Source: Ulota crispa (taxonomy: Eukaryota; Streptophyta; Bryopsida; Orthotrichales; Orthotrichaceae). Taken from it: a stretch of DNA of 64,000 nt. A program made the position numbers and the translations under genes. The DNA lies in contig OY987250.1 of assembly GCA_963920765.1 (NCBI GenBank), positions 5,456,001 through 5,520,000 of the forward strand. The letters run 5' to 3'. This document shows positions 1,833-59,301 of the stretch, in pieces (positions within the stretch are counted from its first letter, which is position 1; the number at the start of each line of letters is the position of its first letter). The notes under the pieces were generated by a model. That model was given only the letters and a program-made list of their open reading frames with translations. It ran no database searches and was not told the DNA's origin.

Positions 1833-1903
1833 TGATAGTGTTATTACTAATCATACTACCAAAATCTAAATTACCTCTATAATATCACACCCTCCCTCTT
1901 TAA

Positions 1904-2812
1904 CCCCTAAAGGACAAAGGAGCCCACTTTTGGCTTTATGAGAACTTGGGCAAGCTCTATTGACTTCATAATTTGGAAACTTTTCATGAAATTCTTAGGA
2001 TGGATGCTACTCATCATAATCTACATGTGAATCTTTATTTCATGTCATTCCGATAAGTAATGCAAAAGTTAGAAGGTTTTTTCAAATTCAATGTCGAACC
2101 GGGTAGCAAAAATATACATTTTGATTTTTTTTAAATTTTTTTTAAAGAATTGTATAGATTGATACCTACTCAAAAAAATTGAATCACTTAATTCCAAATA
2201 ATGAAGTAAGAGTTAAAAGGAGTTTTCTTTTGCAGGCAATGAAGGCAAGAAGAGGGTAGAAAAACCATATAAAATTATCTTTTACTCTCAATTTTGAAAA
2301 ATGAAAATGAAAATGAAAAATAAAGTTACTAATTGTCTCTTAGAGCATTCCCACCATTGGAATTAACAATTTTCAAATTCTTCCAAAAATTATTAGCATG
2401 TTAGTTATATCTTTCATTCATCAATACCTTTCACTTTACAATTTTTGTAAAATTGAATCCAAATATTTTTGGTTAAATTTTCTATATATGCTTTCAACCC
2501 ATTTTCCAACATATTGCAAAAATTGCACAAGAAATACAACATATGTGTTTTTTTCTAAAAAGTTTGAAAAATAAAACTTCACCTTTTGGAAGGACTAGAA
2601 AAACCTACATTTTGAAGTTTAGGCATATTGACCTTGCAATTGGTGGGGATATTCATTCTGCAATTTTGGGACAATGTACTTGTGCAAGTCAACCAAAGGA
2701 TCCTACAGCTGGATTTGTTAATAAATAAGTTTCAATGAAGATTTTGACTTAGGTTTGGAGACTAGTATTTCAAAGCAGTTTTGGGCCTCTAAACACAAAA
2801 GAATTTTAGGGG
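1904..2812. mobile_element. TTAA-flanked CCCC element inserted in minisatellite
   Basis: The left end is TTAA then CCCCTAAAGGAC; the right end, reverse complemented, is TTAA then CCCCTAAAATTC. The host DNA is the inverted arm of the 21-bp minisatellite. Removing the element with one TTAA restores the 21-bp period, so the four-base duplication is directly visible. The 909-bp interior has only a 61-codon open frame (2543-2728) without a known domain. TTAA duplication and CCC ends are piggyBac-type features; assignment is by inference. Confidence 0.75.
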
Positions 2813-2866
2813 TTAATATCACACCCTCCCTCTTTAGTATCACACCCTCCCTCTTTAATATCACAC
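2813..2866. repeat. Inverted 21-bp minisatellite arm
   Basis: Two to three units of the 21-bp repeat are in reverse orientation (tatcacaccctccctctttag type), continuing the partial arm at 1880-1903. With the array at 1641-1832 they form an inverted pair. Confidence 0.8.
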
Positions 2867-4382
2867 ATCAATCTTTGTGACATTATCCCATGCATAAGTT
2901 ATGAAGACTTACTCAAATTTTATCAAGTAGTTTGTGAAGCTTTTAAAGGGTGATAACTTGGGAGAATTTGGTTCAGCCACCACCAATATTCCCTAAACTA
3001 GCTAAATTTAGCTAGATTTCTACAAAACTAAATTGTGCGCTAAACTTGTATGGGGAAAATTTTGAAAAAAATGGAGATTTGAGCAAGAAATTGCACCTAG
3101 AAAATGTTGAATAGCGACTTGCTATTTCCTCTTGCTATTTCCTCTTGCTCCATAATCAGCATCCATCCCCTCCATCAACTTCATGAATGTAGCTCCTTAG
3201 CTATCTTGAGCATGCACATATCACTGCAGTAGTAACATTTCCACGTCCAAATTGCAACCTTCACTTTGCTCATGTGCAAATAAAGCAAATTGAAGTTAGT
3301 AGAGGGGTTAGTTGAACTAATGGAGTTTAGGCTTAGTGGTTTACTTGTTTAGGCATTGATCTTTGTTGCAGACTTGCAACAACGCAAATCCTCCAATGTC
3401 TCCTCTGGCCCTCTCATTCATGGCAATCACCGCCAAATTGTGAAAGCCCTTTACTTGTGTACTTGCCATTGTCCATAGAATTGTGTGGTCCAATGCTCCA
3501 TTGCTTGTTATTGTGCATTTTAGGTTCAATTGCATGGAATGCACGCATGCGCACTTGAATTGCAGCAGAGATTAAGCATGCTCTGCATTTCTAAAGTTGA
3601 ACCTTAACTTCAACAGCCTCCACTAGATTTTACTTGAACTTGCAAGGCAATTTGGAGCACAAAGTCTAAGGTGGGTGCAATTGCAACTTTACATTACTTC
3701 TGTCAATTCTAACCAATACTAACGTGGCTTATCTTTGTTATTGTGCAAATCACTAATGTTGCAAAATGGGCAATTTTGCTACGCAAATTGAGTTCAACTT
3801 CCAAACTAGTGGCACAATATTTGTTACAATGTTTGTCTTAGAACATTTGAAATTTTGCACCACAATTGTCAATATTTTACATTTTCCAAGACTGGTTAGT
3901 AATTCCAAGAAATTCATTAACCAAAAGTAGCCATCAATAAGCTCCACAATTTCCTTCAAGTTAGCAAGTTGTACTCTACTTTAGAAAAAAATATATATCC
4001 AAATTTCTACATTTTTTTCCATGAGTTAGCTACCGTGATTTTACCATTTTCCTTCTATATTGCGTTAATAGCTCCCTTCTACACATGGTTATAGCCATTT
4101 GACTAAAAACTCAAAACCAATTCTGGGAAAGCTGGCCACCACCCGGTAACTTTACAAAAAAATCTGGACAGAGTTATCCTCAAACCTTCAAATACGGTAG
4201 GTTTGACACCCACTACCTAGTCAGACTTCCTGAGGGTATCTTTCTCTCACGCCAGAGCTACACAGGTGAAACTGTGAAAGCAGCCGATTTGGAACAGATG
4301 AAGAAGTCAAATGTATTCTTGGGTTATTGGGAGGTTAACAACTTTGCTCGAGGCTCCGTGCATTGTTTTTTTTAAAGATATA
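2867..4382. other. Unassigned intergenic DNA
   Basis: AT-rich sequence in which I recognise no gene, RNA or complete mobile element. Confidence 0.5.
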
Positions 4383-4386
4383 TTAA

Positions 4387-5289
4387 CCCCTAAATGCCCA
4401 AGGCACCCAATTTGGGTGTCCAAAAAACTTCAAGAAATTTTGAAATTTTGTTGAAGGCATGGATTTTATCGTTTTCAGGTTTTTGTTGTTGGAAAAGTTG
4501 TGTGATGAAATTGGTTTCAATGTTCAAATTCAACTTCTTTCATGTTTTATTCCAATTATTTTTGGTGGAAGGTTAACTGCAAGCATACATTTTGGTTTGT
4601 GAATAGTGTCGTGAATAGTGTCACAAAGCCTATGAGAAGTTGCCACATTGAAAAGATGTGCATCAAGTTGAGCAAAAGATGAAGATTTCCTTTGGGCACT
4701 CCCTTGGGCAATAAGGGCCCTTTTTACGGAAATTTTGACATCTAACAAAATCTAAAAGAGCTTTTGGACTAATTTCAATTGGAATATCTTTGTTATATAA
4801 ATTAGAATCCATTCACTGTTGAATTTTCCTTCATTCAAATTGATTTTAGGTCAATAATTGAAGCTAAAAAAATTTCTTTGTATTAGGTGTTTGCACTTTG
4901 ATAGTTGCGTTGCAGGCTCATTTGTGAAAGTATGGTCATGGATTTGGAAGGGGGGCCATTTGTTTTGAAGTAACAACAATAAACACTAAAGCATCCTAAG
5001 TGGCTACTTCCCAATTTTGTATCCAAAAGTTGCCAATTTGCATTAGAAGTTTCGGGCGGCTCCAAAAAAAGCAAAAAATTCTATACTTATCATCATTCAA
5101 TCACAAATATCTGAAAATCCGCATGGCCATTTTGGGTTATTTTTAAGTAGCGTCATTTAGAAGCCTTGAAGTTCAAGATTCAACGGTTACAATTTTGTTT
5201 TGATGTTTAATAATGATCTTACAAGGACAATTCAAAAACTTCAAAAATGCATTCCAAAATCAAGAAATACACCCTTGGGCATTTAGGGG
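4387..5289. mobile_element. TTAA-flanked element, family A copy 1 (903 bp)
   Basis: Perfect 17-bp terminal inverted repeats, CCCCTAAATGCCCAAGG, are bounded by TTAA at 4383-4386 and 5290-5293. A near-full-length relative lies at 58191-59114. The interior includes a short tandem motif (gaatagtgtc, about 4598-4622) that is expanded in the second copy. No transposase is encoded; open frames at 4394-4576, 4530-4748 and 4883-5074 are not conserved as proteins between the copies. Confidence 0.85.
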
Positions 5290-6208: not shown

Positions 6209-7134
6209 CCCCTAAAGGACCATTGTCCCTTTGGGGGACAAGTTGGACTTCGGGCATGTACCTATGACTAGACTACTTGGTGTAATTTTCTGTAACTTTT
6301 ATTGAAGATGTGAAGTTTGAAGATCTATGTGGGCATCTAATTTTTTCTTCATTCCGACATTTGATGAAGAAGTTATGCATGAATTTATGAACATTTGGGG
6401 AGGACTGCCCGTCTGGGCAGCCCAAAAACTTCTTTAGAAATTATTTAAAAAAAAAAGAAGTTTGAAATTGGTTTTTCAGATGTTTTTATATGTGAGAAGC
6501 TTTGAATCATTCAATTTCAATCAATGACATGAAAGTTATGAGGACTTTTTGTTTGTGGGTAGTTATGGATTCTCTACTCTAAAATAAACTTTGAAGTTCT
6601 TTATTTTACTCAATTTTCAATATTTTGGAAAAAAAAATTATACCATAGGAAGTAGATTTTTAATCACAACATTATAACTGTTGGGATTTGCATTTTTCAT
6701 TTCAATTATTGAATTCTAAATAAAATAGTGTTTTGACTCATTCTCTACTTTTTACTTATTGATTTTTCCCAAGTGTTGTATAGTTCCAATTGATTTGAAA
6801 ATTCTCCCACACATACCTAACTTGATCTCCTACATGAGAAAAATAAAGCGCAACTTTGGGTAGAGCAATTTTTTTGTTATAAGAGTGATCAAAGGCTTTT
6901 GAAATTTTTGGGCAGCATGGAAAAAAACTTGTTTTTTCACTTTAGATGTAAACATCTCACTCCTCTCCAATTGGAATGAGCTGATTTTTTCCCCACAAGT
7001 ACCTCTTCTAGTTTAGGACAAAATCTTATAGTTGGAATTCCCAAAAACAAAATATAAAATCCTTTTCTCTTAAACCTCCTAGAAATGGCGTTTTTTAGTA
7101 ATTTTCACAGAAAAAAGGGCTTGATCCTTTAGGG
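6209..7134. mobile_element. TTAA-type element with decayed right end
   Basis: The left end is TTAA (6205-6208) then CCCCTAAAGGACCATTGTCC, a terminal hairpin. The right end, reverse complemented, begins CCCCTAAAGGATC, but the flanking TTAA is lost (ACTT instead). The length of about 926 bp resembles the other family members. No coding capacity is recognised. The right border is approximate. Confidence 0.6.
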
Positions 7135-10479: not shown

Positions 10480-13400
10480 TTATGCATCTCCATGTCTACC
10501 ACCCTTAACATTGCTTCTCCAAGAATCGATGGCTTCCTTGTAAGGAAAAGATTCTAGGGTGTAGTACTTTTGTCCAAACATGTGGACCACAAGTGGGAGG
10601 TGTTTCCCCAATCTGTTTCTTTGGCATGATTTGAGAAACTTCAAATTGGAAAAGCACCACTCATCCTCAACGGACCCAAGTACAAGGGTGCACCCAATTT
10701 GTGCTAGCTTAAAGTATTCTGAGATAAGCTTAGACAAATGCCTTGATTGGGACAGTCTCCTCCAGAGCATCACCAACAGATTGACATTAAGAAGTGATCC
10801 ACAAGCAAATTCTGCGTTTGCCTTCATGGTGACTTTAAAAAGCCCTTGTTGGTTATCCAACAATGATGAAGAAAGCATTTCAAAGGCAGTAAAGGGAAAG
10901 AATCCCGGCTCCCCCCTACTGAGGGCAACGGCCCTACAATAGAATTGCTTCAGCACCTCCAAATGTTTGACAAAACTCTCCTCAGCTCCGGGCTGCCTCC
11001 AGCATTGGGGGTATACAATGCCAAAGGCATCCAAAAGATGTTGTTGAAGAAATCTTTGGTCAAGCTTGTTTGAGAGATTCTGAGCTATCTCTATGTACAA
11101 CAAGAAGACAATGATGCACGCAGCTTCCATTAGGGTATAACCATCATGTATGCAAGCACCAAAGCACCGGGTTTCAAACAGATAAAAGTGATTGCATAAA
11201 AGATAGAACAACTTCTGCCACTTATCAAAGAGATAAAAGTGATTGCACAAAAGAGAGAAGAACTTCTACTCCTAAAAAACTAGTGAAACTGTAACTAGCA
11301 TGTATGCAAGCAGCCAATCACCAGTATCAAAGAGATAAAAGTAGTTTTGTCACACAGAAAACAAAGTTACTCTTCTTAAACAACTGAAGTCTCAACTAGC
11401 CACCCTGAATCCAATGCATACCATGAGAAGAAGTAAACAAGCAGACTTTACAAGACATCAGCAACACAACCAACCTCGGTAAACCACCACAAACCAATCC
11501 CAAATAAAAAGCAAACTCAAACTTAATGGGTCCAAGCAAGACCATAGACAACACGGCCTCCTACCTGCAAAACCAGCAACCAACATCAGTAACATAACCA
11601 AAATGAACAGCAAAAACTACAGATACTTTAATAACATGACTTTTGAGCAGCAGCTTACTCTAATGAGTCTGGCCTATACCAAACTAGCATATGCAAACCA
11701 TCAGCCACTCTAGAGAACCAAAGAAGAGAAGAGTAGAAAAACAAACAAACCTGCAAACTTCCGCTCCACATTTTCTTGCACTTGGTGGAATTGGTTTAGG
11801 TTCACAAACAGGTGCTCTCTAATCACCCTATCAAGGCAGCGTGCAAACACGCTGGTGACCCGGAAGTTGAAAAGCAGGTGTGCTTGTCCTCCTTCACTTG
11901 GCAACTCCTTCCACTCAAGTGGAATATCATTTGACTTCATGTTAACCAAATCACTGTACACTCTGAAATCACCATCACTGTACACTCTGAAATCACCATT
12001 GCTGTAAGAGGTAGATTTATCAATGAAAAGGAGTGCAAGCTCACTTTGGCAAACCTTGATGGCTTCCATGAAATCACAAATAAAGACATCTTGTGATTGG
12101 GAAAGCTTAATCAAGCAATGCACAACATTCAAAAGAAGAACAAAACAAGCCAATGACAGCAAAACCTCTATGTCAATTAGGATGTCAAAATTGTCTGCTG
12201 CAGCACCATTTGGCTTTTGGCTTGGACCGGCTGCCATATCTACACCCATCTTTGCTATCAAGGTCTTGTACTCTGCAAGAACTCTTTGGGCAGGACTTCT
12301 CTTGGAAATCCAACGTGTTTCCACATTTCTAAGCATCTTATTTCCCTTAGTTTGCATGAGATCAGCAAGCTTCTAGAGCTCAACATGGAGCTTGTGGCTG
12401 CGACAGAAATAAGAGTACACAGACTAAAACAAACCCTCTAAATGAGAAACAAGAGAATATTTGGACAAAGTCTCAACAACCAGATTAATCCTATGAGATG
12501 CACAACTTGCCCCCAAGGAGAAGGGGGCCCACTTCTCCTTGATCTGGATAGTAACTCCATTTCTGGGCCCCTGGAATGTGCTTACTCCATCAGCACCAAA
12601 ACAAACAAGTTTGGAGGCTATCTCCTCACAAGTTAGTCCCCCCTCACCAAGCAAAGAGTTCATGATCACATTGGTTAAGTGATCTGCTGTTCTACTCTTA
12701 GAAACGCATGACAAGTGCAGCAAGTGGGGGATTAGTTGCCAATCATCCATAGCATATACATGCACCCCAATCCAAGAAGTGTTATCCACAATAGTGACTT
12801 CGTCAGTACTAATAGATATGAATCTAGCACTTTGAACAACCGACTTCAAAGCAGACAGAACTGAAGCATGCATATGTTCACTCATTTCCCACCCCGAAGT
12901 CTCTAACCAGTGCTTTTTAGGCACATGTTTTATTTGCAAGTGCCTTAGGAGATGTTGTTCACTCTCAAAATCGCACATTGGACAACCATGACACAAAACT
13001 TGGAAAAGACTCAAAAACTGTACACCCTTCCTTTGTGCGTCGCCCTCCAAGCAGACACTAAGCTACTCCAGAATAGTGCCTGGCTGCTTCCGACTAGCCC
13101 ACAAGTTGCACATCTTCAGATGCTTGCATTGGAAATTTGTGAACACATTGCCTTTCTTCAAATGGAGCTGCGGAACCCCATCCACTCGACAAATTCTTTT
13201 TCCCTCATGCTTCTCCAAGTTGTCAGCCTTGGGGACCATGATTATTTTTTGCTTGCTGATACTGGTACAACTGCGGCAGATCACTCCCACCAAGTCACCA
13301 GCACAATCAAACTTCCATTCTGTCCATGCAAAATGACAGGACCAGACTTCCTACCAATGTCTGTTGGTGGTACTGGCAAAAATCTTCTGACGTTTTTGGG

Positions 13401-15825: not shown

Positions 15826-16473
15826 CCCCTCACTGTCCATGGTAGTTTGAAGTATCTTAGAATTTGCTTGAAAGTGAACAAAATGCCGGCATTTTGATCA
15901 ATCTTATCAAGTTTCTCTAAACTGCAATCGTACAAATTTGAAGTAGACATATTAAAGATCACATAGGAAAAGAAATCACAACAATATCATTTATGGATTG
16001 AAAGGTTATAATGTTTGATCGTGAGGGTGTTAAAACTACAAAAGTGATTTGAAGCCTTTCAATCCTCTTTTTGAATCCCAAATCTAAAATTGAGGGTACC
16101 AAAAAAATACGAGTATGTAAAGTACAACATGTGTAACCCCAATCAATTTATGGCTTCTCAAAATCTATTCTATAATTTTTTAAATTGAAATTTTAATGTG
16201 ATTTTTCCTCCAAGTTCTAGTGTACTTGAAGCTCATTTCCAAGAGCCTTCAACACTAGAAAGTGAAGATTTGCAATGGACACCCTTGCACAAAATCTTGA
16301 ATAGACAAATAACTTTAATTCATTTTCAAAATTAGACTCTTGATGTTGAAACTAGACTTCAATTATAGAGTTTAAAAATCATAATAATCACTAAAAAAAA
16401 TCTTGTAGAAAGGTTGAGCATCCCTGAATTAAATTCAAAGAAGCCCGGTTTGGGCCCCTTGGGCAGTGAGGGG
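15826..16473. mobile_element. TTAA-flanked element, CCCCTCACTG ends (648 bp)
   Basis: The left end is TTAA then CCCCTCACTGTCCATGG; the right, reverse complemented, is TTAA then CCCCTCACTGCCCAAGG. The TTAA copies are at 15822-15825 and 16474-16477. Non-coding. A possible older pair of ends, CCCTTAAAC after TTAA at 15620-15623 and cctttaggg before CTAA at 16698, may enclose this element. Confidence 0.85.
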
Positions 16474-21502: not shown

Positions 21503-23966
21503 ATGGACCAAACAGATGAGCACCGTTCGTGGACCACCCCTTGTGATTTTGAACCATCTCTCGAACACCTCAAAGCACATCAGGACCTGCAAAGTTTGGA
21601 CATGGCGCTCTTGGAGATGAACGACGTCGAAGCCAAGCAGATTGGGAAGGCCGTGGCATCACAGGAATCATTAGAAAAGCTCACTTTCATGCTGGATTCG
21701 GAGTTAAGTGAAGAGAAGAAATCTTCTCCCACGAGCATGTGGCCCATTGATAGTTTCCTCACCGCCGCATTTCTCGGAGAAGGTCGAAAGTGTCCCGTGG
21801 AAAGCTTAGTTATTGCTGGTTCCAGTACTGATGGTATGCTTATGCGAGTCGGGATTCTCCCTAAAGTCCTTCGTGAAAACTCGCGGATTAAAGAGGTTGT
21901 CTTTCGATGGCATGGCGATGATGGGTGCAGTCCGGAGGAGATGCACGAGCTTCTGGGTGTACTGGTGAGTGCCTCCACTGGTTTTCTTTGACCTGGCAAT
22001 TAGAGATCAAGTGATTCTTTTAAGGAATTGATATGTGCACACCCGGACTTTGATGTGTGCACTTGGCGGGGGAGTAAATTTTAGATATTTACCATTCACA
22101 AGCTGAGTTTGCAAAGTTTGAATTCAGATTTGGATTTAGAGATCTTTATTTAGTTTAGCACCACAGATGAGGTTACAATTGAACAACACCTAATGGAAAA
22201 ACTTAGCTAGTGGACAAATTACTACTTTTACTCTTGTTTGTTAAAGAAACTTAACCTTTTCATTAGGTGTTGTTCAATTGTAACCTCCTTTGTGATTTTG
22301 AGCTAATTCAAGGTCTCTAAATCCAAATATGAGTTTAAACTTTCCAAATTCAGCTTGTCAATGATAAATGTCTAAAATTTACCCCCCGGGTGTGCATATA
22401 TCAAACCTTGGGTGTGCATATATCAATTCCCTTTTCTTAAATAATGCAACTTTCAAAAAATGTGAAGAAGGATGTTATAGTCAATTATTGTGTGGCAAGT
22501 ATTTCAGGATGTCTAAGACGTCACTGAAGGTCATGAGTAACACGGCGGTTTGACTGTATTTGTTACTGGTTTTTTTAATTTGTACTTTGAGTACAACGTT
22601 TTTATTGCTCTGTGTTTAAAGTCATTCTTGTTTGAGAGCTTTGCAGCGGAACGTGAAGCTTGATTCTTTGACGTTACCCAGCATGGTGAGATGGGATTTT
22701 CCGGATAATGAAGACCTAGGGTTCCTCGATGCGGAGAGTTTCGCTCAAGTTGTGGAACTTGTGCAACACAACACGTCCATTCACAAGCTGCAACTCCCAA
22801 TCGGAGAATGCAGGGGCCCTAGGTACGCATCTTCTTTATTCTTTTAGAGCCAGCATTTGCTTCCGTTTTTTTATGAAGAGCGACTAGATGGACACCCCCA
22901 TAACCCAGCGTATTTTGACATTATTCTTACACTGAAATATGAAATAAAATCAAAGCAATAGTGGAAATCTACGTCTACAACAGTTGAGAAACATACCTCA
23001 AACATGTCTCATTTGTGATCTAGTTAGGAGTTAAACCAATAAATGAAAGGAAAGACTTGTTTAACCCTTAAATGACCATAGGGCATAGTACATATGCTAC
23101 CATATAATTAACATTTGCTACCAATAAGAAGTTTTAATTTGGGATCTCAAGTAGCTCACTAGAACCGGTTTGATCTATTCTCTATCTTCTTTGTTGATCT
23201 CAAATGTAGTAAAGGTGTGAATCTATTCGAAATAGAAGAAAAACACCTTGTATTATACTAGTTGCAGTGGGACATTTAGACGTTCAAGGGTTAACTCCTA
23301 ATCATGTCACAAATGAGACATATTTGTTGTATATTTACAATACTTGTAGATGTAGATGTACGCCAAAGTATTGCTTTGATTTTATTTCATACTGCAGCGT
23401 AATAATAATCTCAAATTTAATACGTTGGGCTATGGGGGTGTCCACATTGCAACTGTGGGGTGTCCACCTACCTAGTAGCTCCCTTTTTTCATTGTACAAG
23501 TTCGTACTAAATCGGTTTAACCTCGAATTCCGCTCACTCCTGGTACTCATGTTTGAGTTGTATACTCTGCAGGAAAGCTGGGGAGGTGATCAACTTGGAC
23601 GCGTTTTATAAAGTGTTGAGTTCGAACGCATCCATTCGAAGTCTGCATCTGAGTGGGCCATTTTGTACACCGATGGCGGAGACGGAGTTTTCGAAGTGGA
23701 TTCGTACAACGTCAAGTTTGCAGGAGCTGCATCTGGTGGGAGAAGGCGATGAATCTCCGGTGCCCAAGCTGGTGTTCCAGGCCCTGCGAGATAACAAGAG
23801 TTTGCGGAAACTGGAAATGGAGGACTTCATACTCGAGGACGAAGAGTTGGATGAGTTGATGCGTTCCTTGAAAGTGAACGAGACGTTGCAACAGATCGTT
23901 TTTGATCCGAAATGTGAACGAGAGGACGACGTGCAAGAAGCGTTGAAGAAAAATCTGCCAAAATAA
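21503..23966 (+). CDS. Leucine-rich-repeat protein (ribonuclease-inhibitor type)
   Basis: Three exons join in frame: 21503-21964, 22647-22822 and 23573-23966 (TAA), giving 343 residues. Donors are CTG|GTGAGT and TAG|GTACGC; acceptors end ttgcag and ctgcag. The product is a soluble, acidic protein with no signal peptide or membrane segment. Irregular LRRs of about 28 residues run through it (LQSLDMALLEMNDVEAKQIG near the N terminus; SIRSLHLSG, SLQELHLVG, SLRKLEMEDF and LQQIVFDP near the C terminus). The LxxLxL plus helix pattern fits RNase-inhibitor-like repeats, which serve as protein-binding scaffolds. No NB-ARC, kinase or F-box domain is visible, so no function is assigned. The ATG at 21503 was chosen because it follows a likely acceptor and the coding pattern begins there. 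Both introns contain MITEs. Confidence 0.8.
22024..22430. mobile_element. Foldback MITE in LRR intron 1 (GGAATTGATATGTGCAC ends)
   Basis: Left ggaattgatatgtgcacac and right gtgcatatatcaattcc are inverted. The symmetry extends inward through 'gtaaattttagat' and 'gatttggatttagag' and their complements, so almost the whole 407 bp can fold. A second copy lies at 24208-24617, just downstream of the gene. The target duplication is not clear in either copy. Confidence 0.8.
22889..23444. mobile_element. Foldback element in LRR intron 2 with nested insertion
   Basis: The left arm starts tggacacccccataacccag and the right arm ends with its near complement. Symmetry extends over about 150 bp per arm (ends plus 'gaaataaaatcaaagcaat'). 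The loop contains the TTAA-flanked element at 23065-23290. Confidence 0.7.
23065..23290. mobile_element. Small TTAA-flanked element (226 bp)
   Basis: TTAA at 23061-23064 precedes CCCTTAAATGACC. The right end, reverse complemented, is TTAA then CCCTTGAACG (TTAA 23291-23294). It is nested in the centre of the foldback element of LRR intron 2. Non-coding. Confidence 0.65.
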
Positions 23967-25224: not shown

Positions 25225-25462
25225 CCCCTAAGCGCCCAACACAGTTTACTCAAATCCAAACCCTTTGGAACTCATTCCAATCAAACTATCACCTAAAAGT
25301 AATTCACAAAAGTTGACTGTACTAATTGGTAGTGAACATAGGCCTGGAGCTCCAAGGAAAGGAACACGTCCTTTCACCATACCATTGAAAAGATTATAAT
25401 GATCAAACAAGAAAAAATTTCAAAACCAAGAGGCCATATTTGGCCCCTAGGGCTCTTAGGGG
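25225..25462. mobile_element. TTAA-flanked element, CCCCTAAG ends (238 bp)
   Basis: TTAA (25221-25224) precedes CCCCTAAGCGCCC. The right end, reverse complemented, is CCCCTAAGAGCCC, followed by TTAG (25463-25466), apparently a mutated TTAA. It abuts the next element directly. Confidence 0.75.
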
Positions 25463-25466
25463 TTAG

Positions 25467-26312
25467 CCCCTAAAGGACTTGATCCATATTGAAATGGTCA
25501 AACTTCATGTCTAAGCTCAATTTTGCCTTTGTTCAAACAACAATTTTATACTTTTATTGCTTGAAACTAGAACGATATACCATTGCAAGAAATTACAATT
25601 TGTTTCATGAAAAATTGTAATTGTTATCATTTTTTGAAAAAAAAATGAACATAAATAAGTTAAAATAGCAAAAAAAAATCCAAATTACTTGAACTTTTTT
25701 CAAGAGGTACAAGGAGCATTAAAAATTAGTTTGAAAAAATTTCAATTGGTTATTTTATTTTTTACACCCAAAACATCCTCAACAAAGAATTAAAAGTCAA
25801 ATTTGACTATCAAACCAAGTTTATCCTTATATTTAATTAATTTTTAAAATTTTGATGTTTTTTTCTTGAAGACTTATTCATTTTCTATTTTATTTTTATT
25901 TTTTGATAAATTTGATGGAAAAATAAAATTATTGTGATTTTTTTAAAGCTAAATGTGGAATTAAAATAATATCAACTATAAGATATATTAAAAAACATAG
26001 TTTCTACCATAAGTGAATGGTAGAATGAGAAACACAGTTTTGTAGTTTAAATTTAAAATGCATTTAAAGAGTAGGAAATATGAATGAAAAACCCACCATA
26101 ATGTGTTATTTGGATTCTAACACTTGGAGCTTTCAATGGCAATAACTCTTTTGATTTTTGATATTTTTCAAGAAAATTATATGGAATAGAAATGACACTT
26201 GTCAAGCTTCATTTTCTTAGTTTGAACCATGCACCAAATGTTGATGTTTTGAAAGTTACAATTAGGGTTGACCAAGGCACATCCACTTTTTGAATGCTTG
26301 GACCTTTAAGGG
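25467..26312. mobile_element. TTAA-flanked element, CCCCTAAAGGAC ends (846 bp)
   Basis: It begins CCCCTAAAGGACTTG immediately after the TTAG shared with the preceding element. The right end, reverse complemented, is TTAA then CCCTTAAAGGTCC (TTAA 26313-26316). Very AT-rich and non-coding. Confidence 0.75.
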
Positions 26313-31500: not shown

Positions 31501-34500
31501 TCGGCTCCAAACAACGGTCGCTTCCCCTGAAGCTCCGACAACAGCCACTTCTGCCGCTCGTCCTCCGTCCAGTCACGGTATGATCCGATCCCCAGGTAGT
31601 TCGTGATGGTGTCCAGCACGTCCGTGTGCCGCTCCGATTCCTGCCGGATGTCCAGTTTCACCAAGCTCAAGCCAAAGCACGAGACCTGGCGCATGAAATC
31701 CAACAGACTGCCGTCGGCGATTGGCTTGTCTCCTGTTTCGCACAGCGACCTGTAGCAGAGCTCCAAGGGCTCCAGAATCTGCAACAACCACAGAAATCTC
31801 ACTCTTCATAACGAACTCCCAACACAAGCCTTTCTCTCTCTCTTCTCCTTTCTACTCCCTCTGTCCCTCTAAAAACGTCCAAAAAGCTTCCTTGCAAAGG
31901 ATTAATCATGTTTTAAAGTCTTTGTGCTAGTGAAACATGCATTCTAGAATCAATATATCATCTACCAAATGTATGCGAAATCTCCAGTTTTGATGTTGCC
32001 GATTGGGCACCCAAATTCCATGCAAAAAGTACCATACTTGTGCATGTGGCCACCTCCTCATTATTGATGATTTATAGAATAGTACCAACAATGGTACCTC
32101 ATGTGGCAAGGCCAAACTTGCTAGAAGAGGAATGCTCTCTAATTGCTTAACTTGCCCCCATGAGATCATTGAACATGGCAAAGGCTTTCTTAGCGTTTGA
32201 AATTAGCAATAGGGAGCTTTTTTTAGTGGTACAAAAAACGTGTCTGATTTGGAAGTTTTTAGAGAGACAGAGGGAGTAAAATTTATGAGTCCCATCGGTG
32301 AAACGCACTGTTGAGAAGAATTGCAAACCTGAGATGAGTCGGTGAAAGTGTCTTCCAGATTGATGTCGCTCTTGCCATTCGCCAACATGAGCCGCATCCG
32401 TTCCCGAGTGTTGTACAGCTTGTCACGCATGTCTCCCAACAGAACTCGGAAGGGCTCGCTCGGTGGAATGTGCTTCCAAAACTCTACACAACAAGTTGAG
32501 TTATGAACATGATTTTGTAAGCTTAGCAAAAAAGAACTGTACACACCAATAGTAGAATCAAGGGAGCTTACCAACATAATGCTTCGCCTCCTTCTTGGCG
32601 TGTGCATCTAATTGCAACGCCCTCTGCTTGAGCTCATCGCTGCAGCGCCACATGGAGAGCTGACATTGGAACCAAACCAACCAAAATTCAACGTTCAGGA
32701 AAAAACTTGAGGAAATCAAACCGCATACTCTGTTGAAATGGTGGACTTTCACAACATGATGAAGGCTGAAGTATTCAAGAGCTGGAGCACTTTTGCGTTC
32801 CCTAACTGGAAACCACAGTCCAGCTGAACCCTGCCTCTATACTTTGTTAACGTTTAGATCTCTCAAGACTAGAGTTTGCCACTTCATAACCCAGAAGAGC
32901 ACCGGAAAGACGTAGTTCACAAAGCACGAGGCACTTGGAAAATACTAGTTTTCAAAGTGTTGTCAAAGTTTTGAGCATTTCAGGTAGCAAGTTTTTGGCC
33001 CTCTGACATCTGCCATATCAACAAGAGTGCGAGCTCAACGCAGAAAAATGAGTACCTCGAACATAAGATCCTCAATTTGAGCGAAGTAGAGATTAGCTCC
33101 CATGAGGCGAGCTAACAAGCACACATCTCGAGTCACATCTGGAGTGACACGCGGGTTTCCTGATTCCAGACAATTTAAGTTTCAGTACAAATGTAAACAA
33201 AATTGAACACAACCACGCTGTCAAAAAAAAAGTACTCAATTACAAGTGGAGACGAAGCAAAGCAAGTACACCACGAGACGTAAACTCCAAGGAATTCATA
33301 GCAAAGAAGTGACTCCCCTTTTCAAATACGAAATGTTGTTTACAAAGCATCGAAGTTCAGGTTTGTATTTACCATCACGGTCACCACCCATCCAAGAGGA
33401 GAATTGAATGAGAGGCACGTTGTAAGGCAAGCGCTCATTCACACCGATCGACTTCAAAGCCGTGTCCACACGCCTCAAGAATTTCGGCAACCCATTCCAA
33501 ATCGTCTCGTGAAAGTAGCTCATGCCAGCTCGCATCTCATCTTGCGGCGTAGGCTGCGACCGCCGAATCTCATCTGTCCGAAACGCCGCTTGAATCTGTG
33601 CTAAAAGGTAGAGTTCAGCAAAATTCATACGAAATAAAACAAGCATTGCTAGATTTTCAACAAGCCTGTACAAAACCTCAAGGAATAGAATGTGCTACTT
33701 CAGCTTTGATGAAGCTTTGATGAAGAATCACCAGAAACTGTAGTTCTCTTACGAGATAACAAAATGCTATACAAAACAATCTAGAATTCGTAACCTGAGA
33801 CCTAATTCTTGGAGGGGTTAACCTCTGAAGGATGTTGCCTACCAAAAGTATTGGCTGTATTCATACAGGGACTATTTAGTACTTGAAAAAAAAGAAGATT
33901 CATGACAAATGTCAAAAATTCCCCAAAAAATCCTAGTTAACCAGTAGTATGTTTATAACTTGGCTTAAAATTTACAGCTCTAATGAAATTCATGTGCTAC
34001 CCAAACACCCCATCCGTATACAACGCATGAGAGCGTACATAATAGGGAAAATTTCATGGATACCCCTGAAGTTTGCAATAATTTCATAGATACCCCTGCC
34101 TTTTCAGAAATTTCACAGATACCCTTGGACCATAATACCATAATTTTCAGGTTTTTTTTTTTTGTTGTGCATGTCATTTTCCTTCTTCCTTTGTGTGCAC
34201 GCATAACAAAAAGAAGTAGTGAGCGCACAAAGGAAGAAGGGAAGTGGCATGCACAACAAAAAAAACGCTTGAAAATTATGGTCCAAGGGTATATGTGACA
34301 TTTCTGAAAAAGCAGGGGTATCTATGAAATTATTACAAACTTCAGCCCTGGGTATCCATGAAATTTTCCCTACATAATAGCAACAGCCTTTAAGGGTTAA
34401 CCCGAAGAGAGATGGAGAGAAAAGAGCATGGAGAGAAAAGAGCATGGAGAGAAAAGAGCATGGAGAGTAAAGAGCATGGAGAGCAAAGAGCATGGAGAGA

Positions 34501-35482
34501 AAAGAGCATGGAGAGTAAAGGGCATGGAGAGCAAAGAGCATGGAGAGAAAAGAGCATGGAGAGAAAAGAGCATGGAGAGCAAAGAGCATGGAGAGAAGAG
34601 AGCATGGAGAGAAAAGAGCATGGAGAGAATAGAGCATGGAGAGAAAAGCGCATGCATGGAGAGAAAAGAGCTATGGACCTCTCTAGAGAGAGCCTCGTCG
34701 AGCTCGAGCTTCTCCTCGGGGGGGACGTTCTTCTGGTACAATTGCGACAAGCAGTTCCGAATCCTTGAGTGTTTCTGCAACAGAGACCGGCGCACAGACT
34801 GAGTGGGATGCGCTGTGAGCACCAGGTCCACAGTCTGATCCTTGAGAGCCTCGAAGATCTGCTGCGGCGTCTTCTTCAGCTGCTTCACCAGGCGTTGAAA
34901 GGTCTGCTCGAAATCAGACTCCGTGAGTGCCGAGCTCTCGTCTCCCAGGTCGCCACGGCGGTTCCCCGGACGCCGGTACGCAATTTGCACCTCCTCCGCC
35001 AAGTTGCCGAGATTGAGCATGTGCGAGAACGAGCTCGCCACCACGATGGAGTCGCCGGCGTCGAGGTCGTTCAGCAACGACGACAGCTGCTCCAGCTTCT
35101 GCACATCTTTGCCGTCCGTCTTGCAGAACGCGCCTGATAGCTCGTAACAATTTTGCACCTAAAAATCCAAACCACACAAACACTCCACGTCACAATTCAC
35201 AACACACACCACACACAGACAATAACAAGCACAATCACAAGCACAATCACAAGCACAATCACAAGCACAATCACAAGTACACAAAATGTGGTGGACTTGG
35301 AATGGAGAATTCGGGAGTACCGTTTCTTTGATCTCTTTCCCGTGCAGGTCTTCCACGATGTCGAGGAACCGATCTAGCAAGAGCGCGTCGTACTCGATGA
35401 GCTTGTCGTCGTCCGACACTCGCTTCGGCACTAGCAAGCGCATCTGCGCGTCAATCGACTCTATCTTTTGCAAGTACGCCAT
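28593..35482 (-). CDS. PPC: Plant-type phosphoenolpyruvate carboxylase
   Basis: PEPC adds bicarbonate to phosphoenolpyruvate to form oxaloacetate, in the cytosol. Ten exons (5' to 3': 35482-35321, 35158-34679, 33595-33373, 33159-33056, 32659-32572, 32483-32329, 31778-31224, 30792-30349, 30053-29667, 28898-28593) join in frame to 967 residues, the usual plant length. Motifs seen: phosphorylation motif SIDAQMR (Ser9), TAHPTQS (His171), [24 protein letters not shown] (about 631-641), SKRKPSGG and C-terminal QNTG. At the position where C4 enzymes carry Ser (IPWIFxWTQTRF) it has Ala, the C3-type state. The residue four before Ser9 is Gln rather than the usual acidic residue. An ATG eight codons upstream (35506) is in frame; 35482 was chosen because it puts the Ser at the usual distance. 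The reading frame is intact despite introns full of insertions. Confidence 0.97.
28948..29633 (+). pseudogene. atp1: Mitochondrial atp1 fragment in PEPC intron 9, split by MITE
   Basis: On the strand opposite PEPC, 28951-29060 translates as part of the ATP synthase alpha subunit, including the P-loop GDRQTGKTA and LNQKQMN. The match resumes at 29495 with YVVIGQKG and continues as [11 protein letters not shown] and LQFLAPY to about 29633. KQMN and ALEYC are mitochondrial rather than plastid type. The 434-bp MITE at 29061-29494 interrupts it; removing it with one TA restores LYCVYVVIGQ in frame. After that there is a one-base shift, one CAA-to-TAA type stop and a short deletion. The fragment is about 255 bp of organelle DNA, fills most of intron 9 and is not expressed as a protein. 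Confidence 0.85.
29061..29494. mobile_element. TA-flanked MITE, AGGTAGGA family copy 2
   Basis: The left end AGGTAGGAGCACTCC and the right end (reverse complement AGTGTAGGAGCAATCATAAG) are flanked by TA (29059-29060 and 29495-29496). Internal tandem units gtgatggttatgggtgac occur at about 29165-29215. The insertion target is readable because the flanks are a mitochondrial atp1 fragment. Confidence 0.85.
30150..30325. repeat. Tandem duplication in PEPC intron 8
   Basis: A unit of roughly 85-90 bp (ggtagctacatcggctataa... ggtctggaactttg) occurs twice within the 295-bp intron 8 with moderate divergence. Confidence 0.6.
30878..31190. mobile_element. MULE-type MITE copy 1 (PEPC intron 7)
   Basis: Ends GGGAAAATTTCATGGAT and its complement are flanked by perfect 9-bp duplications TACTTTCAA (30869-30877, 31191-31199). 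The 313-bp element has inverted arms of about 80-100 bp around a purine-rich centre. A 9-bp duplication is characteristic of Mutator-like elements. Eight bases (acccctga) are missing near the left end. Confidence 0.88.
33822..34396. mobile_element. TTAA-flanked element in PEPC intron 2 (575 bp)
   Basis: TTAA (33818-33821) precedes CCTCTGAAGGATGTTGC. The right end, reverse complemented, is TTAA then CCCTTAAAGGCTGTTGC (TTAA 34397-34400). It contains the MULE-type MITE at 34045-34370, so about 249 bp is its own sequence. Confidence 0.7.
34045..34370. mobile_element. MULE-type MITE copy 2 (PEPC intron 2)
   Basis: The same GGGAAAATTTCATGGAT ends are flanked by perfect 9-bp duplications TACATAATA (34036-34044, 34371-34379). 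326 bp, nested inside the TTAA element 33822-34396. Confidence 0.9.
34404..34670. repeat. 16-bp minisatellite next to PEPC intron 2 donor
   Basis: About 16 copies of gagcatggagagaaaa, read as pyrimidine-rich ctctccatgctcttttc on the transcribed strand. The array begins eight bases into intron 2 (donor GAG|GTCCAT at 34678). Open frames through it, such as the 253-codon frame 34397-35158, are read-through from exon 2 and not real extensions. Confidence 0.9.
35222..35276. repeat. 12-bp repeat in PEPC intron 1
   Basis: About four and a half copies of cacaatcacaag lie inside the short intron 1 (35159-35320). Confidence 0.85.
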
Positions 35483-36901: not shown

Positions 36902-39900
36902 ATGACGACGACAACCAGCTACTGCGCTCCTTTGGTGGTAATCGGATCGGTCAATGCGGACATATACATGGAGGTGGAGCGGCTCCCGGTCGAGGGCGAA
37001 ACCATCGCTGCAAGAAGCGGGCGAACGTTTCCGGGAGGCAAGGGCGCCAACCAAGCTGTGTGTGCTGCTCGCCTCTCCTATCCGACCTTCTTCTGCGGCC
37101 AGGTACATACAATAACGCCGTTGCAATCACTGCTGGTATCGGATTTCCCTTCCATCTCAAGCTTTGGATCCATCTCAAGCTTGGATCAATCTCAACTCTC
37201 AAGCTTTGGACCGATCTCACGCTTTGGATCGATCTCAACTCTCAAGCTTTGGATTGATCTCACGCTTTGGATCAATCTCACGCTTTGGATTGAATGCTTT
37301 GGATCGATCTCAAGCTTTGGATGGATCTCAACTCTCAAGCTTTGGATCGACCTCACGCTTTGGAAGGATCTCAACTCTCAAGCTTTGGATCGATCTCAAG
37401 CTTTGGAAGGATCTCAACTCTCAAGCTTTGGATCAATCTCAAGCTTTAGATTGATCTCAAGCTTTGGATCAGTCTCACTCTTTGGATCGATCTCAAGCTT
37501 TGGATTGATCTCAAGCTTTGGATCCATCCATCTCAGCTCTCAAGCTTTGGATCGATCTCAAACCTCAAGCTTTGGATTGATCTCAACTCTCAAGCTTTGG
37601 ATTGATCTCAAGCTTTGGATCGATCTCAAACCTCAAGCTTTGGATTGATCTCAACTCTCAAGCTTTGGATTGATCTCAACTCTCAAGCTTTGGATCGATC
37701 TCAAGCTTTGGATCGATCTCAAGCTTTGGATCGATCTCAAGCTTTGGATCAATCTCAAGCTTTGATCAGTCTCACTCTTTGGATCGATCTCAAGCCTTGG
37801 ATTGATCTCAAGCTTTGGATCCATCCATCTCAGCTCTCAAGCTTTGGATCAATCTCACTCTTTGGATCCATCTCAAACGTCAAGCTTTGGATTGATCTCA
37901 ACTCTCAAGCTTTGGATCGAGCTCAACTCTCAAGCGTTGGATCAATCTCAAGCTCAAGCTTGGACTGATCTCAAGCTTTGGATTGAGAGACAACTGATTT
38001 GCAGTTCGGCGTTCTGCAAGGTTGGACAGGACGCGCATGGCAACCTCGTGAAAGACGCGCTTGCATCAGCAGGAGTGAGTATAGAGTACGTGAGAACTGT
38101 TAAGGGAGCTCCGACAGGTCACGCAGTGGTGATGCTGCAACCAGGAGGGCAAAACTCCATCATCATCGTCGGTGGAGCCAACACCGCATGGCCAAGGGTA
38201 GAAGAAGAAGACGGCGAAGGACTCATCACCAGCAACGTCCAGAAACTGATCAAACGAGCAGGAGCCGTGCTGTTGCAACGTGAGATTCCGGATGCTGTCA
38301 ACGTCGAGGCTGCCAAGGTACACGACGATGACGACGACACCAATCATCATCCCTACAAACCTCTGCTGTTTCATCAAAAGCTCAAACCCAGAATACGTGC
38401 GTCATGCTTGGGACTTTTCCCTTTGTCCGTTTTTTATTCGAATTTTTTTTACTACTAAGGCCTGGCAATGTTTGTTTTGAAACTAGGGAAAATTGTTTCA
38501 TGGATACCCCTGAAGTTTGCGATATTTGCATAGATACCCCTGCTTAGTCAGAAATTGCACGGATAACCTTGGACCATGATATTTAGGCATTTATTTGTTG
38601 AGCTTGTACTTCCTTCATGAGAAGGGAATGTAATGAAACAAAAAAGAGGCAACGTGCGCACACAAAGGAAGAATGGACGTGACATGCATAACAAAACAAA
38701 CTGCTTGATTTGGGTCCAAGGGTATTTGTGCAATTTCTGAAAAAACAAGGGTATCTATGCAAATATTGCAAACTTCAGGGGTATCCATGAAATTTTCCCT
38801 TGAAACTATTCTGGTGTTTTGATGCTTTCTTCTTTTTTCATAGTTCTGGATTTTCTCTGGCTTTGTTTGGTGTGTAGATTGCGAAGAGTGCTGGCGTTCC
38901 GGTGTACATGGACGCTGGTGGTGCTGAAGGCCCCATTCCTGATGAGCTTCTTAAATGTGTGATTGTGCTGAGCCCTAACGAGACCGAGCTAGCTCGCTTG
39001 ACTGCAATGCCGACCAATTCCTTGAAAGAAATTCTTCAAGCTGCTGCCAAGGTTCAGGAGATGGTACACAACGCGCTCTATAGTCTTTTTTTTTTTTGTT
39101 GTAACAATTGTTGACACTTTGCAATGACAAAGAACATCCAACCCTGACTAAAATTAGTATTCTTGTAACTGCACACTCCTTGCATATCCTCAGAATCTCT
39201 CCAACTGGGCACCTACCCTAAACCCTAAACCCACTCTGTTTTGGCACGTTCCTTTCATGTTGTCACTGGAGAAGTAATTGCACATGTCAAATCATGGAGA
39301 CTTGAGAACCCAAGCCCATGTATCCCCAGGTAGTGTTATTCGAGAGGTTGAATGTACTCTTCGCTCACAATCCTCAACCCGTTGCATCTTTTATGTAACG
39401 AACAGGAAGATAGGCATGATGGAAATCCAAAATCCAAGGCATAATGGTCCTTCCAAACAGATACAGGGCTCCCCATAGAAGGCTATGTATGGCTCATAGG
39501 TTTAAATTTGGTTCTCCTTTAAGTGTTTTCAATAGACTCTTGAAAGAGAAGGAGAATGTCATCGTGATAAGACTGCTGATGATTTCGGAAATGAACTTGG
39601 AGCTACAAGAGTTTATCAGCAAAATAGTGAGTGTGTGATGCAACTGTATAACGTCCAGGGTAACGCTGGGTGTAAAGCAGGGTGTGAAGCAAGTTTTGGT
39701 CAAGATGAGAGAGAAAGGCTCTGTGCTGGTACGCCAGGGGGAGCCTCCACTATATCAGCCTGCGATCTTGGCTCCCGAGGTAGTTGACACAACCGGAGCC
39801 GGTGACACGTTTACAGCTGCCTTCACTGTTGCCGTCATTGAACGCCAGACACCTGCAGACGCACTTAGATTTGCTGGTATGCTCGTCACTTCAATGCTTG

Positions 39901-54471: not shown

Positions 54472-55447
54472 CCCCTCATTGCCCAAGGTCCAAACATGCC
54501 TAAAAGCATCCTTGCTTTTGAAGTGTTGTAAATCTAAATGTCAATGAGGTATGAAAGTCTCAATTGTTCAATCTTATAGAGTGCATGTTGTAGATGATGC
54601 GGATCAATTTGGGGTCATTTGATCACATAGATTGCAAGATTATAATATTTTAGTGTTGAAAAAAGACATTGAGATTTTCCTAAAAACATGTTTGGGGGTG
54701 AAATTAGATTTCTAAACCTACTCAAATGAAAATTTTCTAAAACGTAAAGTGATTCTAAACCAATATACAAACACATTGGTGAAAGAAAATATCATTCAAT
54801 ATACTCAGTGTGTCCAAAATTGTTTTGAAATGTCAAAAAACAATGAGAAAAGGTAGCAAAAAATCACATCTATAGGTAAACCTCCCTCTACTAAAATGCT
54901 TCCCATTTATTTGTACCTTCTTGGATTGATATGAAATTTTAACAAAAAAAACTAGACTAGTATGCACGTCAACTCTTCCAATAAAAAAATATTGAAAAAA
55001 GACTTTGTATGAAGAAGTTATAAGCCACCAAAGTTCACTATAATGCAAAAATCTGTGGATTTTGAACTTTGAGTTGGTCCCAAACATTCAAAACAACTTG
55101 GATTGACATGAAAATTTTACCACAATTACTAAACTTTAAGGGGAACAAAACCCAAAAAATTTGATTGAAAACAAACATTTGATGAAAAAGACACAAATCC
55201 CCAAAGTTGCAACCATCACAACGCAGTGTGGTGAACTCAAATTGAACATATCAACTTTGAATGGTTTTGACAAACTCAATATATTTTAAATTGATCTAAA
55301 AAAATTACCATAGGAACTAGACTAGTGTGTACAACTTTACTAACAAATTTTATTGAATTTAAACAATAAATGCAAAAATTACAACATTTCAAAATTGGAT
55401 AGCCAGACTGTTAGAAGACACTTTTTATCCCCTTGAGGATTGAGGGG
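54472..55447. mobile_element. TTAA-flanked element, CCCCTCATT ends (976 bp)
   Basis: TTAA (54468-54471) precedes CCCCTCATTGCCCAAGG. The right end, reverse complemented, is TTAA then CCCCTCAATCCTCAAGG (TTAA 55448-55451). AT-rich, non-coding. The ends resemble those of 15826-16473. Confidence 0.8.
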
Positions 55448-55883: not shown

Positions 55884-56122
55884 TTAACCCTTGAACGCTA
55901 GGCTAGTCACCGTGATCAGCGTGGCAATAATAAATTCTACAATGATTTCAATGCATCATTGGTGTGGCAAGTGTCCAATTATTCCAAATGTCAATAAGGT
56001 GGAAGTACTCATATCCGATAACGCCCCATTCCCAACCAATAGGGGGTGCTATTTCCACCATGAGCAAGGATAGGTGCTTTGGAATGTGTTTTTTTGACTT
56101 TTTCAAGGTTGGGGCTACCTAA

Positions 56123-56314
56123 GTCATGCCACATGTTCCAAAGTGAGGTAGGAAGTAATGAGCTGAAAGTAATTTGGCTAGTAATAGAATTGCATATATC
56201 TGGACATTGGCAATGGGAGTCATGCCACATGTTCCAAAGTGAGGTAGGAAGTAATGAGCTAAAAGTAATTTGGCTAGTAACAGAATTGCATATATCTGGA
56301 CATTGGCAATGGGT
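56123..56314. repeat. 96-bp tandem duplication
   Basis: Two nearly identical 96-bp units starting gtcatgccacatgttccaaa. The open frames in both strands across it (56009-56392, 56079-56318, 56119-56337) are repeat artefacts. Confidence 0.9.
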
Positions 56315-56442
56315 GTAGAATACTTTTTGACTCCCAAAATTCATAGTAATTTCAACTTTGCAAATAAAATTATGAAATATTTGCAATCCCAATATTTCTT
56401 ATCTTCCTAGTTCCAACATGGGAAAAATAATTTTTGCCTTAA

Positions 56443-56514
56443 CCCATTAATGCCCAAGCAACCCATATGTGGTTGATTTCCAGTGTATTTTGGGAGTGTC
56501 CGGGCGTTAATGGG
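56443..56514. mobile_element. 72-bp TTAA-flanked mini-element
   Basis: Ends CCCATTAATGCCCAAGC and (reverse complement) CCCATTAACGCCCGG are flanked by TTAA (56439-56442 and 56515-56518). It consists of little more than two termini. Confidence 0.7.
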
Positions 56515-56829
56515 TTAAACTCTTTGTAGTTTTTTGCAAAATTGCTTAAGTTATCAGATATGGATGCTTCCACCTTAATACATGTTGATTTCATGAAAAT
56601 TGCAAGGACAGCATGGGACCTAACATTGTGGCTCTACACCTTCTCACAATTTGAGTTACCTAAAAATACTAGTAAATTTGGTGTGGTTGTTTTTTACTCC
56701 ATGATAGACCATGTTCCTATGATCACTTCTGGAAAAAATCAAGTAAAAAACTGCTTTTCTCTATTCTGCAGAATGTTTTTTCACGGCCAGCGGAAGTAAA
56801 ACGTTTGCCATTTAGGGGGCGTTTAGGGG

Positions 56830-57693: not shown

Positions 57694-57695
57694 AA

Positions 57696-58160
57696 ACTTG
57701 AAGGTATCCTTCTCGCTTGAGAGAAAAAATAAAGAGGAAAGACCTCCAGGAAACGACACAAAAAAGAAAAGGAGAGAGCTTCTGTAGCAGCTGCGCTCCA
57801 AGACGCTTGATAATCTTTACCGACATGCAATTGAAGCAACTCATTGGTTACAGAAGACCAAAAGAAAAAGGTTAGCTGACCAAGCCGCCTCATGCAACCA
57901 GCAACAGTGCCGCCATTTGAAAGCACTCGACCTGGTCACTCCAGTAAGCTCACCGCCATGCCATGCTTTTCAATCAACATCGCGGAGCTCTGAATCTAAA
58001 TTCTCGTACACCTTGAGTAAGCTCCGAAATGATGAAGGAAGAAAATTAGCACCAACTCCAAATAATTGAACGAATTGAAATGGACAGGAAATTGAGAACC
58101 CTCGGCTACTCTAGCTCATTTAGTCAGTCTCCATTAAACAGAATCCAAACAAGAAGTCTT
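57696..58160. other. Unassigned intergenic DNA
   Basis: Nothing recognised. Confidence 0.4.
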
Positions 58161-58190
58161 CCTCTATTAACCCCTATTAACCCCTATTAA

Positions 58191-59114
58191 CCCCTAAATG
58201 CCCAAGGCACCTGGTGTCCAAAAAATTTCAGGAACCTTTTAAACCTTGTTGAAGACACAGATTTTACTGTTTTGAGGTTTTTTTTTTTTTTTTTGGAAAA
58301 GTTGCGCACTGAAGTAAGCTTCACCGTTCAAATTCAACTTTCTCCATATCTTGTTCCATTTGTTTTTGGTGGAAGGTTAACTACAAGCATACATTTTCTG
58401 TCATGAATAGTGTTGTGGATAGTGTCATGAATAGTGTCGTGAATAGTGTCACAGAGCTTATGAGAAGTTGCCACATTGAAAAGATGGGCATCAAGTTGAG
58501 CAAAAGGTGAAGATTTCCCTTGGGCACTACCTTGGGCAACAAGGGCCTTTTTTCTAAAATTTTGACATCTAACAAAGTCTAAAAGTACTTTTGGACTAAT
58601 TTCAATTGGAATGTCTTTGTTAATAAGATTAAAATCTATTCACTATTGAAAATCTTTCATTTGTAATGATTTTTGGTCAATAATTGAAGCTAAAAATTTC
58701 TTTGTATTAAATGGTTGCGTTTTGACAATTGCGTTGCAGGCTCATTTGTGAAATTGTGGTCATGGATTTGGAAGAGGGGCCGTTGGTTTTGAGATAACAA
58801 CAATAAACACTAAAGCATCCTAAGCAGTTGTTTCCCAATTTTGTATCCAAAAGTTGCCAATTTGCATTAGAAGTTTTGGGCAGCTCCAAAAAATGCAAAG
58901 AAATCCATACTCATCATCCTTCAATCACAAATATCTTAAAATCCGCGAGGCCATTCTGGACTCTTTTTTGGATAGTGCCATCTAGAAACCTTGAAGTTCA
59001 AAATTCAATGGTTACAATTTTATTTTGATGTTTAATAATGATCTTACAAGGACAATTCAAAAACTTCAAAAATGCATTCCAAAATCAAGAAATACACCCT
59101 TGGGCATTTAGGGG
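58191..59114. mobile_element. TTAA-flanked element, family A copy 2 (924 bp)
   Basis: CCCCTAAATGCCCAAGG ends are flanked by TTAA (58187-58190 and 59115-59118). Near-full-length relative of 4387-5289. The left end is preceded by two extra copies of TTAACCCCTA (from about 58167). The internal gaatagtgtc motif is expanded to about four units (58405-58452), compared with two in copy 1. Non-coding. Confidence 0.88.
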
Positions 59115-59301
59115 TTAAGGTAGGAGGCTTTAATTCAACTCAGGCTCTAAAATGGATCACCTTCTCAAATGTATTATTGTTGTACATGTTGTTTTTCATA
59201 GGCTTCAACAATGTACAGTCGGGTATTGAAGACTTACGAATTGCTTATATAAGCCAATTAGCTTTTTGTTTGAACATGGTGTAATATTGATCTCTTTTGG
59301 T

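Follow-up and report, generated by a model that had tools for sequence, protein, structure and literature searches.

A 64,000-nucleotide stretch of the Ulota crispa genome (contig OY987250.1, here C9:5456001-5520000 and hereafter the window; assembly of 275 Mb in 157 contigs) was found to carry many TTAA-flanked segments with CCC-type inverted ends, which are almost certainly non-autonomous members of the piggyBac superfamily, of the kind called miniature inverted-repeat transposable elements (MITEs), in a land plant. The elements with CCC-type inverted ends are located at TTAA sites, which they duplicate. Long elements with CCC-type ends in this genome code for DDD transposases of the piggyBac type, and at least one window family derives from such a transposase-coding element by internal deletion.

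A sequence-only reading of the window had listed twelve segments as starting with CCC(C/T)T and lying between TTAA or one-base variants. All 12 were re-read with their flanks. Both flanks were TTAA in 8 of 12 segments, and allowing one-base variants raised this to 11 of 12, with only 6209-7134 left out (GACT on the right); TTAG is common to 25225-25462 and 25467-26312 and is also the right flank of 55888-56829. The description therefore held for most segments and failed for the right flank of 6209-7134 and for the starts at 33822 (CCTCT) and 56443 (CCCAT). Inverted ends starting with CCY were present in the window segments and the long elements, with one left end reading CCT (33822). For boundaries, 40 candidates were scored per genome search, and counts are given among the matches listed. 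Both ends were supported by other copies or by empty sites in 7 of the 12 segments and support was partial in 3 (15826, 54472, and 6209, where the right TTAA is lost). On both strands of the window TTAACCC[CT]T occurred 22 times, far above the average of 1.4 over 30 sequences simulated by a first-order Markov model. The proposed TTAA/CCC-ended repeat family was confirmed. Eleven segments (55888-56829 left out) total 7243 bp, or 11% of the window.

The genome-wide search for TTAA/CCC-bounded ends that had been suggested from the window returned 24,605 occurrences of TTAACCCYTNANNGNCCA (12257 + 12348) versus 6 reversed controls, and 3188 + 3179 occurrences of TTAACCCCTAAATG versus 1 reversed control. 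At two ends per element, the TTAACCCYTNANNGNCCA count corresponds to about 12,300 elements, a low figure if ends are degenerate. With 12 TTAACCCYTNANNGNCCA ends, where the genome averages 5.7 per 64 kb, the window is approximately twofold rich in them; scaled down from the window's 11%, the element share of the genome may perhaps be roughly 5%.

Duplication of TTAA at the flanks of copies had been named beforehand as a test and was borne out both at empty sites and at end motifs. The 72-bp element 56443-56514 lies in a host repeat for which 35 copies with the left piece were listed, 28 with an adjacent right piece and 7 with none. Relative to the window copy, 27 of these 28 were without a net 76 bp (the element and one TTAA) and one was without 66 bp; the 27 empty copies comprised 23 exact junctions and 4 alignments that stopped short. 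An additional related empty site for this element (L027:1571-1706) has TTCA at the site. Empty sites were further sought by a joined-flank test with 40 candidates. A related empty site for L037:8479-9385 was found in L039 (96.1%, exact TTAA) and one for the long element of L026 at L037:684-788 (75.7%, TTAG at the site), and a nested site in L036 was weak, with three relatives without the insert and TTAA kept in one. The end motif CCCYTNANNGNCCA followed TTAA in 40 of 41 cases and TTGA in the remaining one in 262,020 bases made up of the window and L021-L040 (twenty 9.9-kb genomic regions picked for their transposase match), a set chosen independently of end motifs. When loci fetched by end pattern were included, TTAA preceded the motif in 48 of 52 cases, the others being TTGA (2), TTAG (1) and AAAG (1).

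Such flanks could also be left by PIF/Harbinger or Tc1/mariner MITEs with TWA or TA targets inside TTAA, because TA, TTA and TAA are all contained in that site, and both superfamilies are among the usual plant MITEs in the available part of PMC12550479. Against this stand the symmetric TTAA on either side of CCC ends, the net 76 bp (72 + 4) missing in 27 of 28 relatives and a linked transposase of piggyBac type, in a genome that was not searched for PIF/Harbinger or Tc1/mariner transposases; this origin is considered extremely improbable.

No DDE_Tnp_1_7-type transposase was seen within the 64-kb window, and the expectation that the enzyme would be encoded elsewhere in the genome proved correct. 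A profile search of contigs C1-C11 with PF13843 (DDE_Tnp_1_7) gave at least 120 matches (best E 1.3e-73), of which 10 contain no internal stop; 116 of 527 candidates were scored, and the match list is a lower bound. The same profile had no match in 14 control genomes, which provide no plant control because all are bacterial or archaeal, and comparison of the transposase alignment with viral contigs gave 11 pattern-matching stretches, of which 0 were confirmed. Transposase P0001 matched the solved structures of piggyBac (6x67, E 4.1e-20) and of piggyBat from the bat Myotis (9c0f, E 5.8e-17). All 5 aligned proteins have the motifs T-x-DE and DN; 4 extend as far as the third Asp (GVDxxDQ), which is conserved in 3 of them, and these DDD residues are presumed to be catalytic. 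Of the 5 proteins, P0005 alone showed a C-terminal cysteine-rich tail on inspection by eye, the other frames ending earlier or being broken. Identity to the first protein of the alignment is 33-40% for the four others; several divergent lineages therefore coexist. At L047 (C1:1180709-1181995), two stop-free transposase matches occur with one 563-aa frame and could represent an intact or domesticated copy.

End pairs around the transposase were assessed by judgement in the twenty long regions. A matching pair with exact TTAA was found in 6 of 20 (L021, L024, L025, L026, L037 and L040; 5.0-5.7 kb) and a pair with one variant base in 2 of 20 (L030, 5.0 kb; L029, 6.3 kb). If the DDE_Tnp_1_7 genes and the short elements were unrelated, CCC ends would lie beside transposases by chance, as the tied end pair of L021 and the ambiguous pairs of L023, L038 and L039 might suggest, some pairs being ambiguous because end motifs are dense. 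This is contradicted by a 5.02-kb unit that recurs, with its matching ends, in both L021 and L030, by the related empty site for the whole 5.1-kb L026 element and by the termini of 551 and 111 bp that L024 and window copies have in common, and the probability of chance association is regarded as negligible.

The 5.7-kb transposase-coding element of L024 is the longer TTAA/CCC-ended copy encoding DDE_Tnp_1_7 that the sequence-only reading had proposed to look for. The right 551 bp of 4387-5289 match one of its termini at 87.7% identity, and the left 111 bp of this window element match its other terminus at 73%; for 58191-59114, the corresponding values are 84% over the right 552 bp and 68% over the left ~111 bp. 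As both termini are common to the long element, 4387-5289 and 58191-59114 are internally deleted piggyBac derivatives.

The possibility of an undescribed TTAA-specific superfamily, alike in its CCC end by coincidence, had been raised together with the piggyBac assignment. It would fit the diverse end sequences and the fact that most window families were not each tied to a long partner of their own. It is strongly disfavoured and very unlikely, since long elements bounded by CCC and TTAA encode DDE_Tnp_1_7 and one of them has both termini in common with two window elements; with this linked transposase, no new superfamily is needed. Membership of the piggyBac superfamily is supported by these same elements and by the alignment to 6x67 and 9c0f.

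Several observations weigh against the piggyBac reading or limit it. Stop codons are present in 110 of the 120 listed transposase matches, which makes present activity uncertain, and in P0001 the third catalytic residue is Asn. Among the 20 long regions, 3 were ambiguous (those named above) and 9 were without a convincing end pair. A partner with shared termini was found for only one window family, the others being linked by similar ends. Duplication of TTAA and duplication of TA inside TTAA are inseparable by sequence alone, and the distinction rests on the transposase.

The cycle of Trichoplusia ni piggyBac, in the available part of PMC7351741, proceeds by a hairpin on the TTAA flank, re-opening of the hairpin, insertion at TTAA and seamless repair. 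By analogy, transposase would be supplied in trans to the short moss elements, a nick would be made at each end, a hairpin would form on the 4-nt TTAA flank and be re-opened, and the element would insert into a new TTAA, with excision expected to be seamless.

Divergent long elements were also found to have stretches of ~45-120 residues in common ~1.5-2 kb upstream of the transposase core (~28-50% identity), which are more alike in closer element pairs. Searching with a 78-aa stretch of L026 yielded 103 matches (E ≤ 1). For 35 of the best 66 of the 103, a PF13843 match was listed ≤15 kb downstream in the same orientation, within 4.5 kb in 33 of the 35 pairs; PF13843 lay upstream in 1 and on the opposite strand in 0. 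Ten of the 66 matches are not independent, because they lie inside the 20 regions fetched for their transposase, and 31 were without a listed PF13843 match within 15 kb downstream, the PF13843 list being a lower bound. The module was not recognised in Pfam (best LPD16, E 0.013, in 1 of 9 members, and ScsC_N, E 0.16, in 1 of 9) or in PDB (best E 0.15), none of eight upstream open reading frames matched Pfam at E 0.5, and no profile match was found in the solved chains of piggyBac or piggyBat. A 539-aa open reading frame in L025 was rejected as an in-frame extension of the transposase, as the conserved module is in another frame; exon joining and a separate protein are therefore both possible. 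The module may be an N-terminal region with which the transposase binds DNA or a partner, or else a second protein.

PiggyBac elements are known mainly from animals and are prized because they leave no footprint. The moss elements resemble T. ni piggyBac (6x67/6x68) in TTAA target and duplication, CCC ends and a DDE_Tnp_1_7 transposase with DDD motifs. They differ in size, 7 of the 8 bounded long elements being 5.0-5.7 kb and that of L029 6.3 kb, compared with 2472 bp for T. ni piggyBac and 2.23-3.52 kb for bee elements (PMC10140906, available part), and, unlike both T. ni piggyBac and piggyBat, in the conserved upstream module. In being short, high-copy, non-coding and internally deleted derivatives they are like plant MITEs of the Tc1/mariner, PIF/Harbinger, Mutator, hAT and CACTA superfamilies, from which the TTAA duplication and the piggyBac partner set them apart.

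The words "piggyBac" and "TTAA" are absent from the main text of a MITE survey of 207 plants (PMC12550479) and of a review of land-plant transposable elements (PMC9033089). In the parts available, PiggyBac is placed among plant or angiosperm MITE superfamilies in two reviews (PMC10004981, PMC10794571), plants are named among piggyBac hosts (PMC10140906), a fern repeat table lists 1230 PiggyBac copies in 122 kb (PMC6890710), and piggyBac is described as yet untried in P. patens as of 2017 (PMC5505980). "PiggyBac" is absent from the available text of a liverwort genome paper (PMC9985172), and the available text of a moss draft genome paper has neither "transposon" nor, by search listing, "piggyBac" (PMC9631980). 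The view that piggyBac is rare or poorly described in land plants was thus upheld in part: among the papers listed by a full-text literature search, with most subscription journals outside it, none was seen that deals with piggyBac elements native to mosses or other bryophytes, and on the other side reviews, as far as available, already name plants as hosts.

What is new is the host and scale, in a land plant, and the upstream module; the mechanism is not the surprise. We propose tentatively, with slightly less than even confidence, a land-plant piggyBac lineage with tens of thousands of copies that is a major DNA transposon here, has a distinct 5-6 kb form and a second conserved protein module absent from Pfam (consensus around WRYLFYRQIAxLLGW), and could provide a native plant system for seamless insertion and excision at TTAA. 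TTAA/CCC elements could be misassigned or missed by pipelines that classify plant MITEs into five or six superfamilies. If relatives carry these elements, the invasion could be dated, horizontal transfer tested and plant-adapted transposases sought.

Table 1. Positions of the window segments and of the long elements with end pairs (L, regional coordinates).
Feature	Position	Strand	Evidence
Non-autonomous TTAA/CCCC element, 909 bp	1904..2812	n/a	TTAA either side; other copies
Internal-deletion derivative of transposase-coding piggyBac element, 903 bp	4387..5289	n/a	TTAA either side; L024 termini
TTAA/CCCC element, right target-site duplication lost (GACT)	6209..7134	n/a	Left TTAA; relatives
Non-autonomous element, 648 bp	15826..16473	n/a	TTAA either side; relatives support interior, own sequence supports ends
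Short element, 226 bp	23065..23290	n/a	TTAA either side; longer relative
Short element, 238 bp, adjoining 25467-26312	25225..25462	n/a	Own inverted ends; TTAA/TTAG flanks
Non-autonomous element, 846 bp, left target-site duplication TTAG	25467..26312	n/a	Other copies
TTAA-bounded segment holding unrelated 329-bp foldback repeat (34043-34371)	33822..34396	n/a	One other copy
Non-autonomous element, 976 bp	54472..55447	n/a	TTAA either side; relatives cover left end and most of body
Claimed element, joint boundaries not supported	55888..56829	n/a	Mosaic: another repeat and 72-bp insertion
72-bp element within another repeat	56443..56514	n/a	Empty sites; best-proven TTAA duplication
Second member of 4387-5289 family, 924 bp	58191..59114	n/a	TTAA either side; L024 termini
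Bounded long elements	L021:1767-6785; L030:1801-6818; L024:1771-7508; L025; L026:1800-6893; L037; L040		End pairs

For 1904-2812, all 39 other listed copies (88-92% identical) share bounds with window 1900-2816, the outer TTAA edges, with start offsets of ≤8 bp and end offsets of ≤6 bp. For 4387-5289, 40 other matches were listed (83-94%, mostly full length), and 58191-59114 is 84% identical to it over 935 bp. Three tandem copies of TTAACCCCTA (window 58167-58196) continue straight into the left end of 58191-59114. A full-length relative of 6209-7134 (L035:725-1651, 80%) has TAAA as its left flank; a second (L029:418-1347) aligns in two pieces and has TTAA on both sides, at the right end after one extra terminal base. 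Across query positions 22-537, 15826-16473 has 75-79% identity with CCCCTAAATG-family members (L021, L005, L004 and L001), of which L021:8806-9450 is bounded by TTAA. Both ends of 23065-23290 are common to a longer TTAA-bounded relative, L030:7083-7673. Support for 25225-25462 comes from its own ends only, because no further copy was found among 40 listed genome matches. All 39 other listed matches of 25467-26312 span the segment (84-88%); in 28 of the 39, neither edge is more than a few bases from those of window 25463-26316 (starts at query 261-264 and ends at 1116-1122, the TTAG and TTAA edges being at 264 and 1117), and the edges of the remaining copies are up to ~35 bp off. Relatives of 54472-55447 were found in L008 (82%, element positions 1-922, with TTAA outside the common end) and L039 (83%, positions 2-691, stopped by the locus end).

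A single other copy of 33822-34396 was found (84%, over window 33825-34400, bounds equal within 3 bp), most other listed matches being restricted to the inner repeat (query ~344-673). This ~330-bp palindromic foldback repeat lies at window 34043-34371 and also at 30877-31193 and 38484-38800; it is frequent in the genome, accounting for most of 100 listed matches, and TTAA/CCC ends were not noticed on it. The segment 55888-56829, previously taken as an element, was rejected as a unit, since none of the listed matches had both bounds (40 candidates scored); its main homologies begin at query 100 or deeper, and one 67% match over query 727-973 ends close to the right bound.

By eye, the window contains exons similar to those of plant-type PEPC and of a pfkB-type kinase. 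Tandem repeats at 34364-34702 and 37170-37979 (a 16-bp unit; ~18- and ~25-bp units) lie near or within these PEPC-like and kinase-like genes. On the minus strand, long frames at 10483-13062 resemble, by eye, pieces of a hAT/BED-type transposase. Elsewhere in the assembly, a 112.5-kb contig carries matK, identified through its maturase domain, together with trnK, psbA, rps4, ndhJ, ndhK and ndhC recognised by eye and trnT and trnF located by ARAGORN. The length of this contig, the 522-aa frame of matK and the presence of ten contigs of 15.8-41.4 Mb plus C11 would fit a moss. ChlL (PF00142), used as a host marker, had no match on the plastid contig C157 and one strong but partial match on C7. In the genome, pairs of matches in opposite orientation with equal or near-equal scores were found 14-109 kb apart at C7:18203169/18223004, C2:36765124/36779670, C10:676128/785346 and C5:10976110/10991109, and may be large inverted duplications or assembly artefacts.

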